A stretch of 64,000 bases of DNA, taken from NCBI RefSeq assembly GCF_035474595.1, contig NZ_DATIND010000046.1, forward strand, positions 1-64,000, written 5' to 3'. Positions 35,757 to 43,662 of this stretch are shown here, one piece after another. The stretch is from Longimicrobium sp. (GTDB lineage Bacteria > Gemmatimonadota > Gemmatimonadetes > Longimicrobiales > Longimicrobiaceae). Both the position numbers and the translations under genes were made by a program. The number at the start of each line of letters is the position of its first letter. Within the stretch, counting starts at the first letter, position 1. The notes below the pieces were generated by a model. That model saw nothing but the letters and a program-made list of their open reading frames with translations, did not search any database and had not been told where the DNA came from.

Positions 35757-35950
35757 AACATGCACGCGAGGGGGCCATTCGGAAGCCGGTGTGAATCCGG
35801 CGCGGCCCCGCCACTGTGAGAGGCCCGGCGACCTCGGTCGCCGGCCCGGCCCGCTCCGCGGGGGTCAAGCCCCCGCACCGCCACTGGGTGTACCAGGCCC
35901 GGGAAGGTGGAGCGCCAGCCGCCTCGAGCCAGGAGACCGGCCCCTTCGCT
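35757..35950 (+). promoter_or_regulatory. Cobalamin (AdoCbl) riboswitch
   Basis: The conserved core is readable: GAAGCCGGTGTGAATCCGGC, then CCCGCCACTGTGAG, then at the 3' side AGCCAGGAGACCGGCC, which are the hallmark boxes of the B12 riboswitch. Peripheral stems such as CGGCGACC...GGTCGCCG lie between. It is directly upstream of btuF, 134 nt before the start. Known members repress transport or synthesis genes when adenosylcobalamin is abundant. Boundaries are approximate. Confidence 0.95.
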
Positions 35951-36083
35951 CCCGCAACGACACCCCTCGCGGGAGGGGAGCGGGTCCGACTGCCGGCCGG
36001 TGGCTCCACCTTTCGTCCCTCGGGGACGAGCCCAGCCGACTTCGCACCCGTCTCCTCCGCGACTACGTGGAAGGACGGGTCTT

Positions 36084-37028
36084 TTGTTTCCGGTCCCTCG
36101 CCGGCTCCGCATCTCCCCCGCCGCCGCGCTGGCGGCCGCGCTCCTCGCCGGGTGCGGCGGCCGCGCGGACGGCGGCGCGCGCGCGCGTTCCGCATCCGCA
36201 GACTCGGCCGTCTCGGTGGTGGACGACGCGGGGCGTACGGTGCGGCTGGACCGTCCCGCGCGGCGCATCGTCGCGCTGGTGCCCGCGGTGACCGAGACGG
36301 TGATCTCGATCGGCGCGGGCGGCTCGCTCGTCGGGCGGACGGATTACGACCGGGGGGAGATGGTGGAGCGTCTTCCCTCCGTCGGCGGCGGGCTGGACCC
36401 CAGCATCGAGAAGCTCGTCTCCCTCCATCCCGACTTGGTGCTGGGATGGGAGACGAGCGGGCGCACGGAGCTGCGCGACCGGCTGACCGCGCTCGGCATC
36501 CCCGTGTTCGCCATGAAGATCGAGGACACGACCGACGTCTTCCGCTCGGTCCGCAACCTGGGCGCGCTCACCGGGCGCGGCCGCGCGGCGGATTCCGTCT
36601 CCGCGTCGATCCGCCGCGAGCTGGACGCGGTGCGCGCGTCCGTGGCCTCGTCTCCCCGCCCTTCCGTCTTCTTCCTGGTGTGGAACGACCCGCCGATGAC
36701 CGCGGGGGCCAGGACGTTCGTGTCGCAGGTGATCGAGATCGCGGGGGGACGGAACGTCTTCGGCGACCAGGCGGCGCTCTGGCCCAGCGTGTCGATGGAG
36801 GAGATCGTCCGCCGGCAGCCGGACTTCGTGCTGGTACCCGTGGGCGAGCGGGGGATGGTGCGGCTGGAGGCGATGCGCACGGCGGTCGGCTGGCGCGAGC
36901 TGCGGGCGCTGCGCGAGGGGCGCGGCGTGCCCGTTCCCTCGCAGGTGGTGAACCAGCCGGGGCCGCACCTGGCCGAAGCGGCGCGGGCCATCCGCGACGC
37001 CATCCACCCCGGGGTGAAGGGGCGATGA
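36084..37028 (+). CDS. btuF: Cobalamin ABC transporter substrate-binding lipoprotein
   Basis: A 314-residue periplasmic-binding protein. The start is an inferred TTG at 36084 with AAGGA 8 nt upstream; the N-terminus then reads as a signal sequence ending in LLAGC, a good lipobox. The mature part follows the class III fold of BtuF/FhuD/FepB: RRIVALVPAVTETVISIGAG, DPSIEKLVSLHPDLVLGWE, then AIHP at the end. It captures B12 and passes it to BtuCD. The preceding riboswitch makes cobalamin the likely ligand. btuC overlaps by 4 nt (ATGA). Confidence 0.9.
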   Translation: MFPVPRRLRISPAAALAAALLAGCGGRADGGARARSASADSAVSVVDDAGRTVRLDRPARRIVALVPAVTETVISIGAGGSLVGRTDYDRGEMVERLPSVGGGLDPSIEKLVSLHPDLVLGWETSGRTELRDRLTALGIPVFAMKIEDTTDVFRSVRNLGALTGRGRAADSVSASIRRELDAVRASVASSPRPSVFFLVWNDPPMTAGARTFVSQVIEIAGGRNVFGDQAALWPSVSMEEIVRRQPDFVLVPVGERGMVRLEAMRTAVGWRELRALREGRGVPVPSQVVNQPGPHLAEAARAIRDAIHPGVKGR

Positions 37029-38011
37029 GGCCGCTCGCGCGCCTGGCCCTGCTCGCGGCGATCGTGGCCGCGGCGCTCCTGCTGGCCGTGCGGCTGGGTG
37101 CGGTGCCGCTCACCCTGCGCCAGGTGGTGGACGGCGTCCGCGGCGCGGGGGACCCGACCAACGTGGCCATCGTGCGCCGCCTCCGCCTCCCCCGCGCCGT
37201 GCTGGCGGCGATGGTGGGCGGCTCGCTGGCGGCCAGCGGCGCGACCTTCCAGGCGCTGCTGCGCAACCCGCTCGCGGAGCCGTACATCCTGGGGATCAGC
37301 GGCGGCGCGGCCGTGGGCGCGGTGTTCGCGATCGCGCTGGGCGGCGCGGCGGCGTCGGGGGGGATCGTGGCGGCGGCGGCGCTGGCGGGGGCGGTGATCG
37401 CCATCGTCCTCGTCTTCCGCATCGCCGCCGTCGTCGGGCGGGCGCTGGACACGCGCATCCTGCTGCTGGCGGGGGTCGTCGTCGGCGCCTTCTTCAACGC
37501 GTGCATCCTCCTGGCGCTCACCTTCGCGGACGCGGACGCCTTCCGCTCGGCCATCTTCTGGATCATGGGAAGCTTCTCCGGCGCCACCTGGCGCGGCATC
37601 TCCCTCCTGGCCGTGGCCATGGTCCCCGCGCTGGTGCTGCTGATGGCGCTGGCCCGCCCGCTCAACCTCCTTTCCGTGGGGGAAGAGACCGCCGCGTACC
37701 TGGGGACGCGGGTGGAGCGGACCAAGCTGCTCGCCTACGGGACGGCGTCGCTGCTGACGGCGGGCGCGGTCGCCGTGAGCGGGGTGATCGGCTTCGTCGG
37801 CCTCGTCGTCCCCCACGTGGTGCGGATGCTGTGGGGGCCCGACCACCGCTTCCTCATTCCGGCGTCGGTGTTGCTGGGCGCAGCGTTCGTGGTGCTGGCG
37901 GACACGCTGGCGCGCACCGCCGCCGCGCCGACCGAGCTGCCCGTGGGCGTGGTGACGGCGTTCGTCGGCGTCCCCTTCTTCGTCTGGCTCCTGCGCGGGA
38001 GGGGCGCGTGA
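37025..38011 (+). CDS. btuC: Cobalamin ABC transporter permease
   Basis: A 328-residue FecCD-family permease with about ten membrane helices. Typical sequence includes IVRRLRLPRAVLAAMVGGSL, GATFQALLRNPLAEPYILG and PHVVRMLWGPDHRFLIP. It forms the inner-membrane channel of the BtuCD transporter. Start and stop overlap btuF and btuD (ATGA and GTGA), so all three are coupled. Length is normal. Confidence 0.93.
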   Translation: MRPLARLALLAAIVAAALLLAVRLGAVPLTLRQVVDGVRGAGDPTNVAIVRRLRLPRAVLAAMVGGSLAASGATFQALLRNPLAEPYILGISGGAAVGAVFAIALGGAAASGGIVAAAALAGAVIAIVLVFRIAAVVGRALDTRILLLAGVVVGAFFNACILLALTFADADAFRSAIFWIMGSFSGATWRGISLLAVAMVPALVLLMALARPLNLLSVGEETAAYLGTRVERTKLLAYGTASLLTAGAVAVSGVIGFVGLVVPHVVRMLWGPDHRFLIPASVLLGAAFVVLADTLARTAAAPTELPVGVVTAFVGVPFFVWLLRGRGA

Positions 38012-38850
38012 ACGGCTGGAGCTGCCGCGGCGTCACCTTCCGCTATCCCGAGTCGAATCGCCCCGCGGTGGACGGGGTGACGGTGGAGATCCCGGCGGGG
38101 ACGTGCACCGCCGTGCTGGGGCCCAATGGCTCGGGAAAGTCGACGCTGCTGCGGCTGCTGCTGGGAACGCTGAGGCCGTCGGCGGGATCGGTGGAGCTGG
38201 ACGGGCGGGCGGTGGGGGATTGGGGACGGGAGGAGATCGCGCGCGCCGTGGGCGTGGTGCCGCAGGGCGAGGAGGCGGCGTTCCCGATGACCGTGCGGGA
38301 GATGGTGGCGATGGGCCGCTACCCGCACCTGGGCCCCTGGCGCCGCGAGGGCGACGCCGACCGCCGCGCGGTGGAGCGGGCCATGCGCCGCTGCGACGTG
38401 CTGGCCTTCGCGCACCGCCCCATCTCCACCCTTTCCGGCGGCGAGCGGCAGCGGGCGCGGGTGGCGCGCGCGCTGGCGCAGGAGCCCCGCGCGCTGGCGC
38501 TGGACGAGCCCACGGCGGCGCTCGACATCAGCCACGAGATGGCGATCTTCGAGCTGCTGCGCGACCTGGGCCGCGCGGGGACCACGGTGCTGCTGGTGAC
38601 GCACAACCTGAACCTGGCCGCGCGCTACGCCGACCGCCTGGTGCTGCTGGACCGCGGCCGCATCGCCGCGGCGGGCGCGCCGGAGGAGGTGCTCACCCGG
38701 GAGACGGTGGAGCGCGTGTACGGCTGGCCCGTGCGCATCGACCGGCACCCCGGCCCCGGCCCGGACGCCGGCGCGCCGCAGGTCGTCCCCCTCTCCGGCG
38801 AGGCGTGCGCGCAGATGTCCGGCGCGCGGGAGGCGGCGGATGCGGCGTAA
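38008..38850 (+). CDS. btuD: Cobalamin ABC transporter ATPase
   Basis: A 280-residue ATPase beginning at a GTG that overlaps the btuC stop. Walker A is GPNGSGKST (about 37-45), the signature LSGGERQRARVARAL, Walker B ALALDEPTAALD, and the H-loop TVLLVTHNL. It powers BtuC. The C-terminal tail (after about 245) is longer than in the E. coli protein (249 aa). Downstream, the operon is followed by heptamers and a large inverted repeat before the TonB receptor gene. Confidence 0.92.
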   Translation: MNGWSCRGVTFRYPESNRPAVDGVTVEIPAGTCTAVLGPNGSGKSTLLRLLLGTLRPSAGSVELDGRAVGDWGREEIARAVGVVPQGEEAAFPMTVREMVAMGRYPHLGPWRREGDADRRAVERAMRRCDVLAFAHRPISTLSGGERQRARVARALAQEPRALALDEPTAALDISHEMAIFELLRDLGRAGTTVLLVTHNLNLAARYADRLVLLDRGRIAAAGAPEEVLTRETVERVYGWPVRIDRHPGPGPDAGAPQVVPLSGEACAQMSGAREAADAA

Positions 38851-38851
38851 T

Positions 38852-38882
38852 CAGTGCCCAGTGCCGAGTGCCCAGTGCCAGG
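38852..38882. repeat. Family E heptamer run after btuD
   Basis: CAGTGCCCAGTGCCGAGTGC and CCAGTGCCA repeat the heptamer AGTGCCN about four times, 1-2 nt after the btuD stop. It matches the left arm of the rpoB-rpoC hairpin but has no right arm here. Confidence 0.8.
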
Positions 38883-38935
38883 TGGGTTGGGGCGCATCCG
38901 CGCCCGAGTTGCGCGATTCAGACATCACCACCGCG

Positions 38936-39178
38936 GACGTCATCCTGAGGCCGGCCGCGCCGAACTCTGGTTCGCACGGATGCGTGCAGGCCGAAGGATC
39001 CATAGTCGCCCCCAGCACTCAGCCGAAGACGCGCTCCGATGCCAGGCGGTCGTCGGCTGGACGCGGCCATGCTTCCGCGCGCTTCGGCTGCTCAGTGCTG
39101 GCGGATGCTATAGATCCTTCGGCCTGCGAAGTGTCGCGCATGCCGCGCCGTCGGGGTGGCCGGCCTCAGGATGACGTC
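38936..39178. repeat. Large composite inverted repeat of two family A elements
   Basis: A direct family A copy (38936-39004) faces an inverted copy (39109-39178) across 104 nt. The inner DNA is also palindromic: CCAGCACTCAGCCGAAG near 39012 is answered by CTTCGGCTGCTCAGTGCTGG ending near 39102. The whole 243-bp unit is therefore one extended inverted repeat, like a small MITE. It has no gene and separates btuD from the TonB receptor gene. 38851-39211 is otherwise empty except for the heptamers. Confidence 0.85.
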
Positions 39179-39211
39179 TCCTTTGTCGGGTTCCAACGAT
39201 CGCGCCCTCCA

Positions 39212-41359
39212 TTGCGGACCGCGCTGCTCGTCATCGCCCTGCTGCTCATCTCCCGCACGCCCTTGCTGGCGCAGTTCCCGGGGGAGCTGGCGGGGACGGT
39301 GACGGATGCGGCGACGGGGGCGCCGGTCGCGGCGGCGGCGGTGGAGCTGGCGGGGACGGCGCTGGCGGCGCGGACCGACGGCGCGGGGGCGTTCCGGCTG
39401 CGCGGGCTGGAGCCCGGATCGTATCACGTCGTCATTCGCCGGGCGGGATATGCGTTACAGGATGTCGCCGCGACGGTGCGCAACGGCGAGACGGCGCGTA
39501 TCTCCATCACCCTCCAGCCGGTTCCGGTCACCCTCTCCGCCCTCACGGTGACGGCGGAAGCCGAGGCGGCGGGTGGCAGCGTGGGACGCGCGGAGATCGA
39601 GGCGAGCGGCGCGCGCACCGCCGCCGAGGTGGTGGAGCGCGTCCCCGGCGTGGTGGTGCGGGGGAGCGGGCCGACTGGTGCGCGCACCGTCAGTATCCGC
39701 GGGAGCGCGGCCGACGAGGTGCTGGTGCTGGTGGACGGCGCCGCGCTGAACGACCCCGTGACCGGCGAGGCGGACCTGAGCGCCGTCCCCGCGTCGAGCG
39801 TGGAGCGCGTGACCGTGCTCCCCGGTGCGCGGACGGCGCGGTACGGGCCGCGGGCGCAGGCCGGCGTGGTGCTGGTGGAGACGCGCGCCGCCGCGGCGCG
39901 GCAATCGCTGGAGCTTTCCGCCGGCACCCTCGGCGAATGGTCGGGAGGAGGGGAGATGGGGATGGCGGTGGGGCGGACGGCGTGGAGCGCGGGCGGCCAC
40001 CTGCGCCGCATCGGTGGCGGCTTCGACTACCTCCGCGACGCGAACGACCCCACCAGGGTCCGCCGCACCAACGACGACCTGGGCGAGTGGAGCGCGTTCG
40101 GCGCGGTGTCCTCTCCCCTCGCGGGCGGCGAGCTGCGGGTGCGGGGGGGATGGGACGCCCTCCGCCGCGGCCTTCCCGGCACCGGGCACACGCCCTCGCC
40201 GGACGCGAGGGAGGAGATGGGGCGCGGGCGGGCGTCGCTGGGCTGGCGGCGCGTGGGCGCGCGGACGACGCTCTCCGCGCGGGTGACGGGCGCCGCGCAG
40301 CGCGTCCGCTTCGCCGACCCGGCGCCGCCGTTCGGCCTGCCGTACGACGACACCACCCGCGTGCGCACCGGCGACGTGCGCGTGGAGGCGGAGCGGGCGC
40401 TGGGCGATGTCGGTCTCGTGCGGACCGTCGGCGGCGGGATCGACGCGGGGGCGCAGCACGTGGACGCCGGCGCGCTGTCGGACCGCGCGCCGCGGACGCG
40501 GCATGACTTCGGCGCGTTCGCGCACGCGGCGGGGGGCATCTCCATCTCCCGTCTCCCGCTCGACCTCTCCGCGGAGGGGCGGGTGGACCGCGACGGGGTG
40601 GCGCGCGAGTGGTTCGCCTCGCGCGCGCTGGCGGCCGGGACGCGGGTGGGCGCGCTGCGGGTGCAGGTGGCCAACCGCAGCTCGTTCAGCCCGCCGTCGC
40701 TGGGCGACCAGTTCTTCCGCGAGGGAGTGGGCGTGGTCCCCAACCCGGCGCTCCGCCCCGAGCGCGTGCCCAGCGAGTGGGAGATCTCGTCGTCGCTGGG
40801 CGTGGAGAGGGGCGGCGCGGGGCTCACCGTCTCGGCTGCCGGGTACACGGGAGACGTGAAGGGGATGATCGTGTGGCTCCCCGACTTCGCCTTCCGCTGG
40901 AGCCCGCGCAACGTGGACGTCGCGCGCCGGGGGATGGACGCGCGGGCGGAGGCGAACTTCCCCGCGGCCGGCCTGCGCGTGGCCGGCTCGTGGTCCATCG
41001 CCCGCATCACCTACATCCTGGACGGGCGGGACAGCGGGATCCAGGTGGCGTACCGCCCCGCGCGCAGCGGCCTGCTCACGGCCGCGTGGGCGCCGGGGCC
41101 GTGGCGCGCGGAGCTGGCCGCGCGCTACACGGGGCTGAGGTACCCGGCCCCGGCGAAGGTAAACGCGCTCCCCGGCTTCTGGAGCGCGGACCTGGGCGTG
41201 TCGCGGGCGTGGCGGCTGGGCCGCTGGGCCGCGACGGGCGCCCTGACGATCGACCGAATCTTCGACGAGAAGCAGTCGCTGATCGCCGGCTATCCCGAGC
41301 CGGGGCGGCGGGTGCGTTTCGACCTGCGCCTGACGCGCGCGGGGATCCATCACCCCTGA
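39212..41359 (+). CDS. TonB-dependent receptor, probable cobalamin receptor (BtuB-like)
   Basis: A 715-residue outer-membrane receptor if a TTG at 39212 is used; the exact start is uncertain because the upstream frame is open into the repeat. A signal peptide (LLVIALLLISRTPLLAQ) is followed by a carboxypeptidase-regulatory-like beta-sandwich (about 22-105), a plug (residues about 125-240; VVERVPGVVVRG, VSIRGSAADEVLVLVDGAAL) and a beta-barrel ending VRFDLRLTRAG. It pairs with the btuFCD genes just upstream and a surface lipoprotein downstream. Substrate is inferred from the riboswitch context. Known TonB boxes could not be recognised with confidence. Confidence 0.85.
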   Translation: MRTALLVIALLLISRTPLLAQFPGELAGTVTDAATGAPVAAAAVELAGTALAARTDGAGAFRLRGLEPGSYHVVIRRAGYALQDVAATVRNGETARISITLQPVPVTLSALTVTAEAEAAGGSVGRAEIEASGARTAAEVVERVPGVVVRGSGPTGARTVSIRGSAADEVLVLVDGAALNDPVTGEADLSAVPASSVERVTVLPGARTARYGPRAQAGVVLVETRAAAARQSLELSAGTLGEWSGGGEMGMAVGRTAWSAGGHLRRIGGGFDYLRDANDPTRVRRTNDDLGEWSAFGAVSSPLAGGELRVRGGWDALRRGLPGTGHTPSPDAREEMGRGRASLGWRRVGARTTLSARVTGAAQRVRFADPAPPFGLPYDDTTRVRTGDVRVEAERALGDVGLVRTVGGGIDAGAQHVDAGALSDRAPRTRHDFGAFAHAAGGISISRLPLDLSAEGRVDRDGVAREWFASRALAAGTRVGALRVQVANRSSFSPPSLGDQFFREGVGVVPNPALRPERVPSEWEISSSLGVERGGAGLTVSAAGYTGDVKGMIVWLPDFAFRWSPRNVDVARRGMDARAEANFPAAGLRVAGSWSIARITYILDGRDSGIQVAYRPARSGLLTAAWAPGPWRAELAARYTGLRYPAPAKVNALPGFWSADLGVSRAWRLGRWAATGALTIDRIFDEKQSLIAGYPEPGRRVRFDLRLTRAGIHHP

Positions 41360-41377
41360 CGTACACTGGAAAGCTCG

Positions 41378-42442
41378 ATGACGAACGAAAGCTTCCGCCG
41401 GCTCGGCCGGCTCGCGGTTCTCTCCCTGGCCGCCACGCTGGCCGCCTGCAGCGGCGGCGACGGCCCCGGCGACCCCGGCGGCGGCGGCGCCCCCGAGCGG
41501 GTGGAGGTGATCGTCAACAGCGTGAGCCGCACGCTCAGCATCCTCTCCCCCGACAGCGCCAGCCCGGTGGTGCGCACGGTGGAGCTGGGCTCGCAGGGGA
41601 GCCCGGTGGCCGCGGCGGTGCGCGGCGGGCTGGCCGTGGTGCCGATGGGCACCTATCCCTTCGCGGTGGTGGTGGACCTGCGCACCGGCGTGGTCACCCA
41701 CACCGTGGCGCTCCCCGCGAACTCGGGGGCCACCGGCGCGGCGTTCCTGAACGACTCCATCGTCATGATCGCCAACCCCAACCGCAACACCGTCTCGCCG
41801 GTGAACGCGGTGACGGGGACGATCAAGCCCGAGCTGGCGGTGGGAACGTATCCGCAGACGGTGGTGCCGGGGCCCGACGTGGTGTTCGTGCTGAACGCCA
41901 ACCTGGTGAACTTCGCGCCGGCCGGCCCCGGCTCGGTGAGCGTGATCACCGCGGCCAACAAGGTCGACGCCACCGCGTCGCTGCAGGGGATCAACCCCAC
42001 GGCGGGGGTGGTGAGCGGGGCGCGGCTCTTCATCGTGAACGCGGGCCACTTCGGCGGGAACGACGGCACGCTGTCGGTGCTGAACCTGGCCACGGCCACC
42101 GAGGAGGTGTTCACCGGCTTCGGCGAGTTCCCCGGCTCGGTCGACGTGGGGGTGTCGGGGAACGTGTACGTGGGCGTGTACGGCACCGGGATCCTGGAGT
42201 GGAACCCCGGCGTCCACCAGTTCGTGCGCGGGCTGGACAACCCGATCGTGCCGGCGGGGGGGCCGCCGGTGTCGGCGGTGGCGGTGGACTACGCGGGGCG
42301 GCTGCACACGCTGAACCCGGGGAGCTGCAACGCCCCCGGCAAGGAGTACCGCCTGGTCGGCAGCACGGCGAACCGCACAGTCACCACGGGCGTGTGCCCG
42401 TTCGACATCAAGTTCACCCAGCTCGCGGCGCCGACGGATTGA
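41378..42442 (+). CDS. Beta-propeller-like lipoprotein of the B12 uptake operon (BtuG-like candidate)
   Basis: A 354-residue lipoprotein; signal peptide and lipobox LAACSGG (Cys24). The mature part repeats about 40-45-residue units with endings such as LSILSPDSASPVVRTVELGS, VVVDLRTGVVTHTVAL, VNAVTGTIKPELAVGTYPQT and VITAANKVDATASLQG, the YncE-like pattern of a roughly seven-bladed beta-propeller. It starts 18 nt after the receptor gene and ends before a strong terminator. In Bacteroides, BtuG is a surface beta-propeller lipoprotein that binds cobalamin very tightly and docks on BtuB. The same position and architecture make this a BtuG analogue candidate; sequence identity was not tested. Confidence 0.8.
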   Translation: MTNESFRRLGRLAVLSLAATLAACSGGDGPGDPGGGGAPERVEVIVNSVSRTLSILSPDSASPVVRTVELGSQGSPVAAAVRGGLAVVPMGTYPFAVVVDLRTGVVTHTVALPANSGATGAAFLNDSIVMIANPNRNTVSPVNAVTGTIKPELAVGTYPQTVVPGPDVVFVLNANLVNFAPAGPGSVSVITAANKVDATASLQGINPTAGVVSGARLFIVNAGHFGGNDGTLSVLNLATATEEVFTGFGEFPGSVDVGVSGNVYVGVYGTGILEWNPGVHQFVRGLDNPIVPAGGPPVSAVAVDYAGRLHTLNPGSCNAPGKEYRLVGSTANRTVTTGVCPFDIKFTQLAAPTD

Positions 42443-42522
42443 CGGAGATCGTGCATTCCTGAACCGGGCGTAACGGAGGACGGGACAGCAGCTCTCCGCT
42501 ACCTCGTGAGAGATAGGAACGA

Positions 42523-42559
42523 GAAGCGAGTCGAGACACGGGTTGTCTCGACTCGCTTC
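42523..42559. terminator. 16-bp terminator hairpin closing the B12 operon
   Basis: GAAGCGAGTCGAGACA and TGTCTCGACTCGCTTC form a perfect 16-bp stem with loop CGGGT. It lies 81 nt after the lipoprotein stop and 90 nt from the 3' end of the opposing gene, so it may serve both. Confidence 0.75.
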
Positions 42560-42648: not shown

Positions 42649-43539
42649 TCACGTCCCCGCCCGGCGCAGCGTGATCGAGCCGTTGCCGGTGGAGATGTGC
42701 AGCCGGCGCCCGCCCTGGCCGATGGTGCCGGACACGCGGTGCGACGACATCCGCCCGACCACGCGCAGCGGGAAGTCGCTCTGGAAGCCGCCGTTCCCCG
42801 TGCTCGCCTCGACGTCGGCCGAGAAGTCGGCCGGCAGCGTGAGCACCACCGGGCCGTTGCCGCTGGAGAAGCTCATGTCGCCCGCGCCGCGCAGCGACGC
42901 CAGCGCCACCTCGATGCGCCCGTTGCCGGTGGACGCGCTCACCGGGCCGTTCGACGTGGTCACGGCCACGCGGCCGTTCCCCGAGCTGGCGTTCACGGGG
43001 CCGCGGGCGCCGTCCACCATCACCGCCCCGTTGCCGGTGCTCACGCGCACCTGGGCGGCGCCGGTGCCCACGCGCACGTCGCCGTTGCCGCTGCTGGCGT
43101 GCACGTCGGCGGTGGCGCCGTCCACCGTCACGTCGCCGTTGCCGCTGGACACGCGCACCACCACGCCGCGCGGCACCTCCACGGTGAAGTTCCCCTTCGC
43201 CCTGCGGTTGCGCCAGGCCGTGCCGCGGCCGCTGTGCACGCCGTTGTCGTCGCAGGTGGCGTCGCCGCGCACGGCGCAGACGCGCACGTCGCCGCCGCTG
43301 CGGGCGGTGACGTAGCGGATCTCGTCGCCGGAGCTCGCGTTCTGGGTCTCGGCGTGGATGCGCGCGGTGCCGCCCGACGACTGCCGCACGGTGACGGTGC
43401 CGTTCACGGTGAAGACGCGGAGCGTGGCGCCGGGGGCGACCGCGCCCGACCAGTCGAAGTCGCGCTGCGCGTGCGCGGGGGCGGCCAGCGCGAGCATGGC
43501 CACCGCCGCAACGGCGATCGGGTTGACGGACAGCTTCAT
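42649..43539 (-). CDS. DUF4097-like secreted beta-repeat protein
   Basis: A 296-residue exported protein: signal peptide MKLSVNPIAVAAVAMLALAA ending at AHAQ. The body is a series of short strands with the recurring motif S-[ST]-GNG (VSSGNGDVTV, ASSGNGDVRV, VSTGNGAVMV, ASSGNGRVAV, ASTGNGRIEV, FSSGNGPVVL, ASTGNGGFQS, ISTGNGSITL) spaced about 16-30 residues apart, which should stack as a right-handed parallel beta structure. This matches the DUF4097 (putative adhesin-like) pattern. The ATG at 43539 has GGAGGGGG upstream. It has no operon partners; family C copy 2 lies upstream. Function unknown. Confidence 0.82.
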   Translation of the reverse strand: MKLSVNPIAVAAVAMLALAAPAHAQRDFDWSGAVAPGATLRVFTVNGTVTVRQSSGGTARIHAETQNASSGDEIRYVTARSGGDVRVCAVRGDATCDDNGVHSGRGTAWRNRRAKGNFTVEVPRGVVVRVSSGNGDVTVDGATADVHASSGNGDVRVGTGAAQVRVSTGNGAVMVDGARGPVNASSGNGRVAVTTSNGPVSASTGNGRIEVALASLRGAGDMSFSSGNGPVVLTLPADFSADVEASTGNGGFQSDFPLRVVGRMSSHRVSGTIGQGGRRLHISTGNGSITLRRAGT

Positions 43540-43662
43540 GGCAGGGTCCCCCTCCGGGAGGGTGATGGGGTGATGGAGATCAACATGGCGCACGACGATC
43601 ATTCAGCCGGATTGGATGCGCGCCGCCGCGCCAGGGTTTGAGCCGCCCGGGGACGAACCGCG

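Follow-up and report, generated by a model that had tools for sequence, protein, structure and literature searches.

Outside the Bacteroidota, is vitamin B12 captured by a propeller lipoprotein of the BtuG kind? In Bacteroides thetaiotaomicron, BtuG2 holds corrinoid in a central pocket and forms a lid on the receptor BtuB (PMC10404256), and among 313 gut genomes searched by BlastP, BtuG was exclusive to Bacteroidetes (Wexler et al., PMC6143338). The question is raised by a locus of Longimicrobium sp. (Gemmatimonadota; draft assembly of 6.57 Mb, 96.85% completeness) that lies in a 64,000-nucleotide stretch, hereafter the window, of contig NZ_DATIND010000046.1 (positions 1 to 64,000, forward strand). 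We computed its riboswitch, gene content, lipoprotein signal, BtuB-type receptor, propeller fold (with BtuG as the best match) and phylum-wide linkage to B12 genes. A role of the lipoprotein in corrinoid uptake is well supported, and the locus is probably a complete corrinoid uptake system under riboswitch control in which the lipoprotein captures corrinoid and passes it to a BtuB-type receptor, as BtuG does. Matches to Rfam, Pfam and NCBIfam bore out the first-pass annotation of this DNA, which had described a riboswitch-led locus of btuFCD, a TonB receptor and a lipoprotein:

35781-35937, + strand: cobalamin riboswitch RF00174 (cmscan 39.7 bits; gathering threshold 31.5)
36084-37028, + strand: btuF-like corrinoid-binding protein, TTG start (Peripla_BP_2 PF01497, 5e-31)
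37025-38011, + strand: btuC permease (FecCD, 2e-91; best NCBIfam model vitamin B12 permease BtuC, 2.5e-83)
38008-38850, + strand: btuD ATPase (ABC_tran, 3e-32; corrinoid ABC ATPase among the best models)
39212-41359, + strand: BtuB-type TonB-dependent receptor with N-terminal CarboxypepD_reg, TTG start (Pfam/NCBIfam, profiles, Foldseek)
41378-42442, + strand: BtuG-like lipoprotein of 354 aa, predicted seven-bladed beta-propeller (lipobox LAA|C24, AlphaFold2, Foldseek, btu linkage)

As a single sequence, the lipoprotein had no significant Pfam, NCBIfam or PDB match, and single-sequence searches of plasmids and of genome contigs returned nothing. An AlphaFold2 model built with 18 sequences nevertheless gave a confident propeller (predicted local distance difference test score, pLDDT, 90.8; predicted template modeling score, pTM, 0.87), and our reading of the DSSP strand order suggests seven blades, with the C-terminal strand closing the propeller. 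When the model was compared with 350,542 PDB chains using Foldseek, BtuG1/2/3 made up 15 of the top 18 matches, with E values from 5e-13 to 4e-11 and template modeling (TM) scores of about 0.7. The beta-propeller fold that had been suggested from the sequence was thus confirmed in the model, with BtuG structures as its best fold matches. The strict lipobox pattern was present in 72 of 93 family matches.

The lipoprotein family is widespread in Gemmatimonadota and closely tied to B12 genes. Scanning 84,980 species genomes yielded 16 relatives, all of them titled Gemmatimonadota, and a profile search of 298 genomes of this phylum gave matches at E <= 1e-34 in 81 of them (manual count); below this cut, profile scores drop toward generic propellers. 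In 79 of 84 loci, btuF, C, D or B lay within 10 kb of the lipoprotein gene. The remaining five were four contigs ending close to the gene and locus L056 (8053-9574), in which a cobalamin riboswitch sits immediately 5' of a lipoprotein gene that stands alone, away from any btu gene. A cobalamin riboswitch on the same strand was located within 10 kb upstream in 62 of the 84 loci; most of the other 22 were on contigs that end before the operon start, and about six (L062, L097, L108, L119, L139, L143) had no riboswitch even with about 8 kb available upstream. Genomes carried about one to two cobalamin riboswitches, and we estimate that chance would link far below one locus in 84. Weaker propeller matches fell on contigs other than those of the listed riboswitches wherever this was compared (G120, G144, G301, G182, G141, G254). 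The commonest order was riboswitch-btuFCD-btuB-lipoprotein (23 loci), followed by riboswitch-btuB-lipoprotein (11 loci), and btuB was upstream of the lipoprotein gene in all of the first 20 loci. Together, these data show that the receptor-lipoprotein pair recurs across Gemmatimonadota and does so with cobalamin riboswitches rather than mainly without them. The stricter expectation of the same partner in the same place held for most loci, where the gene stands beside btuB, and failed in several that lack btuB or carry a classical BtuB instead.

Some members of the family depart from the usual arrangement. Two diverged lipoprotein copies stand in tandem at L045:2063-4314, L046:8259-10510, L047:951-3149 and L066:44-2322, following btuB where the contig reaches that far, an arrangement that might reflect duplication to serve two ligands or two receptors. 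A 457-aa lipoprotein at L050:3599-4969 has an N-terminal extension that resembles an immunoglobulin (Ig)/PKD domain, and one alignment member matches PKD families at 2.5e-4. In L140, L142 and L146, btuB is separated from the lipoprotein gene by a second BtuF-like gene.

The receptor encoded 5' of the lipoprotein gene is BtuB-type, of the vitamin B12 TonB family. It matched CarboxypepD_reg (5e-18) and Plug (3e-22) in Pfam, and its best NCBIfam model was TonB-B12. Its single sequence matched vitamin B12 receptors chiefly within the plug and fell under the curated cut-off of TIGR01779, as did two Bacteroidota BtuBs. A profile of nine relatives aligned over both plug and barrel with B. thetaiotaomicron BtuB1 (6.7e-36) and E. 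coli BtuB (3.5e-32), whereas FepA, FecA and others were matched chiefly over the plug region. The top Foldseek matches of its AlphaFold2 model (pLDDT 74.7) were BtuB3, BtuB1 and E. coli BtuB. The carboxypeptidase-regulatory-like domain had been singled out as an extra feature; it proved ordinary, since a domain of this type lies just upstream of the plug in about 19 of the 29 receptors of this genome (manual count over two genome searches), and we dropped it as a distinguishing feature.

Not all riboswitch loci of the phylum use this arrangement. We compared twenty riboswitch loci from Gemmatimonadota genomes without the lipoprotein: most had btuFCD and/or a receptor, no relative of the lipoprotein was found in any of the twenty, and their receptors clustered with E. 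coli and Shinella BtuB (100/98). A riboswitch and a BtuB of the classical E. coli type, but no lipoprotein, are present in L189-L196, L198-L200 and L203-L206. The partnered Gemmatimonadota receptors (100/100) and the Bacteroidota BtuBs (96/90) formed clades apart from the classical BtuBs. Because some loci with a classical receptor also carry the lipoprotein (L112, L117, L138, L141, L150, L151, L153-L155), the lipoprotein is an accessory in part of the phylum and does not go with a single receptor lineage. In the receptor tree without outgroups, the three clades join at one unrooted node, which the tree with outgroups left without resolution. We therefore do not claim co-descent with Bacteroidota BtuB from this tree, as the apparent grouping depends on where the root is drawn.

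The likeness to BtuG was weaker in sequence than in fold and context. When the lipoprotein family profile was searched against PDB sequences, the principal group of solved structures was BtuG, ranked behind one archaeal S-layer YVTN propeller, 1l0q, which scored as well as BtuG. This ranking looked good for a specific kinship, which then failed the YVTN control. A hidden Markov model (HMM) of four Bacteroidota BtuG proteins scored generic Gemmatimonadota YVTN propellers at 49-73 bits and the lipoprotein family at no more than 33 bits, and in hhalign the family profile scored 121 against YVTN propellers and 87 against BtuG. The alignment to the BtuG profile was full-length and in register (positions 20-349 with 14-363), the next register scoring far lower. 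The window lipoprotein had no match to PF16819 (DUF5074) at E <= 10, and five of 24 relatives matched weakly (best 0.011), whereas two Bacteroidota BtuGs matched at 1e-13 and 2e-10. An unrooted propeller tree placed the lipoprotein family, BtuG and the YVTN controls in three well supported separate clades, with the lipoprotein clade split from the YVTN controls at 100/99. We regard fold and context as BtuG-like and, given these HMM and hhalign controls and the three-clade unrooted tree, descent as unsettled. The proposal of a BtuG partner outside the Bacteroidota therefore stands for the propeller fold, the BtuB-type partner and the riboswitch loci, and does not stand for membership in the BtuG family, given the missing DUF5074 match and the separate clade.

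The best explanation of these data is that the lipoprotein works like BtuG yet forms its own clade, which is compatible with its being a true BtuG ortholog: a btuB-btuG pair already present in the common ancestor of Gemmatimonadota and Bacteroidota may have diverged beyond recognition by Pfam. We give this origin about an even chance. The in-register alignment favors it, as do the shared gene order in the two phyla (Bacteroidota including the marine Persicobacter likewise have btuB-btuG) and the placement, in both phyla, of the partnered receptors apart from the classical BtuB clade (100/98); the three rootless propeller clades, the receptor tree that leaves the relation between the phyla open and the lack of a DUF5074 match in the window protein speak against it. 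It competes with independent recruitment, a somewhat less probable history in which a second propeller lipoprotein family acquired the function of BtuG in Gemmatimonadota, such that the propeller lid for B12 evolved twice. In a Persicobacter locus (L176:2818-6972), a lone gene before btuB-btuG resembles, by eye, the BtuH-like domain attached C-terminally to BtuG in L157.

Comparison with characterized systems places the lipoprotein closest to BtuG1/2/3-BtuB of B. thetaiotaomicron, with which it shares a seven-bladed propeller lipoprotein whose gene lies directly 3' of that for a BtuB-type receptor (PMC6143338, PMC10404256), together with the cobalamin riboswitch and btuFCD. It differs from BtuG in having only 13-16% identity, besides the separate clade and the absent DUF5074 match, and from BtuG2 in that all blades of the model have three to four strands, whereas blade 6 of BtuG2 has two. 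Bacteroides XusB-XusA also pairs a TonB receptor with a seven-bladed propeller lipoprotein (PMC13142918; 9gbc), and the receptor match to XusA extends over the CarboxypepD-like N-terminus; XusB, however, binds iron siderophores and belongs to DUF4374. BtuH and BtuJ (DUF4465) are likewise accessory B12-binding surface lipoproteins of riboswitch loci (PMC8941943, PMC13398666), and a 2026 paper argued that DUF4465 B12 scavenging reaches several phyla beyond Bacteroidota and reported DUF4465 genes beside PF16819 propellers (PMC13398666). None of the five proteins of this locus matched DUF4465. E. coli YncE, whose gene yncE adjoins the TonB receptor gene pqqU, and the S-layer protein 1l0q resemble the lipoprotein as YVTN-type propellers, whereas YncE and the YVTN controls fall in a clade separate from it. 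To our knowledge, neither YncE/PqqU nor the S-layer YVTN propeller is B12-regulated.

In the mechanism we propose, corrinoid scarcity would lead the riboswitch to permit expression of the genes. The propeller lipoprotein, lipid-anchored in the outer membrane, would then capture corrinoid in its central pocket and hand it to the BtuB-type TonB receptor, and BtuF and BtuCD would complete import. Corrinoid binding, location in the outer leaflet, complex formation with BtuB and hand-over are inferred by analogy, and the femtomolar binding and surface display that had been suggested are expectations taken over from Bacteroides.

Several observations weigh against this mechanism. The likeness to the BtuG fold could be generic to propellers. 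The window lipoprotein has a single Trp, whereas the BtuG2 pocket contains two Trp and a Tyr (PMC10404256). Acidic residues after the lipid-bearing Cys, considered as a surface signal, were dropped because they were nearly as frequent in BtuF of the same loci (32/41) as in the lipoprotein (61/72), and nothing found in the protein is therefore specific to surface display. Finally, some loci pair the lipoprotein with btuFCD without an adjacent btuB, which is not what a strict role as a lid on BtuB predicts. These last two points would also fit a lipoprotein that serves B12 uptake from the periplasmic side of the outer membrane, relaying corrinoid from the receptor to BtuF instead of forming a surface lid. 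YncE, encoded beside a receptor gene, is periplasmic. We nevertheless consider such a relay unlikely: the best fold matches are the surface-exposed BtuGs, the gene lies directly 3' of btuB in most loci, as in Bacteroidota, and BtuF already fills the periplasmic role.

It is even less probable that the protein is an ordinary propeller lipoprotein of the YVTN/YncE type, with another ligand or a scaffolding role, whose placement in the B12 regulon is incidental. The sequence comparisons leave room for this, since the family is as near to YVTN propellers as to BtuG by hhalign and the BtuG HMM ranks YVTN controls higher, and XusB illustrates that a seven-bladed propeller lipoprotein can bind siderophores. 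The family is, however, separated from the YVTN controls in the propeller tree, B12 genes or a riboswitch are linked to it in essentially every locus with a long enough contig, the lone gene of L056 is itself under a cobalamin riboswitch, and XusB structures are absent among the 50 fold matches listed. The BtuG-like capture and hand-over of corrinoid thus remains our preferred reading of the locus.

Within the window, the cobalamin riboswitch was the sole match of an Rfam scan. The neighboring genes btuF, btuC and btuD overlap by a few bases; the btuF product, which has BtuF (PRK03379) and related models among its nearest named families, is itself a predicted lipoprotein (LLAGC), and 18 bp separate the receptor stop codon from the start of the lipoprotein gene. 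Two non-coding features complete the locus:

38936-39178, no strand: dispersed palindromic repeat in the btuD-btuB gap (inverted repeats of 28 bp and 62 bp)
42523-42538 and 42544-42559, no strand: arms of a perfect hairpin with a 5-nt loop (16/16 bp paired)

The inner motif of the gap repeat, ATAGATCCTTCGGCCTGCG, has 383 copies in the genome (<=2 mismatches) against 0 for a reversed control. The repeat is a very abundant element resembling repetitive extragenic palindromes (REP) or miniature inverted-repeat transposable elements (MITE), and lies outside the uptake function; copies of ATAGATCCTTCGGCCTGCG sit near contig ends several times. Immediately 3' of btuD, at 38853-38880, AGTGCCCAGTGCC(G/A) occurs twice in tandem. 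Because the gap here is 361 bp and filled by the palindromic repeat, whereas close relatives with the same gene order mostly have about 0-170 bp, transcription of btuB and the lipoprotein gene in this strain may require a separate promoter. The description of one riboswitch-led region accordingly holds for gene order, whereas btuB and the lipoprotein gene may or may not be cotranscribed with btuFCD across the repeat-filled gap. The 16-bp terminal hairpin was found as described, with arms 100% complementary. Its folding z was -3.7, it has no T-run after it and it sits between convergent genes; it is probably a terminator lacking a T-run. The convergent gene opposite the lipoprotein gene across the hairpin (42649-43602, - strand) contains many SSGNG/STGNG repeats and appears DUF4097-like by eye. 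The host genome has one cobalamin riboswitch. It also encodes five B12-binding domains, and a search for CbiC, the sole synthesis marker looked for, found none in the genome; this combination fits dependence on scavenged corrinoid, and the host must probably scavenge its B12.

Our search of open-access papers found no report of a BtuG-like protein from Gemmatimonadota. Earlier descriptions confine BtuG to Bacteroidetes and present it as an adaptation to capturing B12 in the gut; our data indicate that a BtuG-like lipoprotein gene accompanies B12 genes outside Bacteroidota, in over a quarter of the Gemmatimonadota genomes that we searched (81 of 298). A family that current libraries list as 'hypothetical' would gain a name that annotators can use. 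The phylum also holds a contrast between a BtuB lineage that has the lipoprotein as its partner and a classical BtuB lineage mostly without it, so that classical BtuB lacking the lipoprotein serves as a natural control and the contribution of the lipoprotein can be compared between relatives. More broadly, lipoprotein-assisted capture of B12 would become a general way to obtain a scarce vitamin if a BtuG-like partner serves a second phylum, one that is largely environmental.

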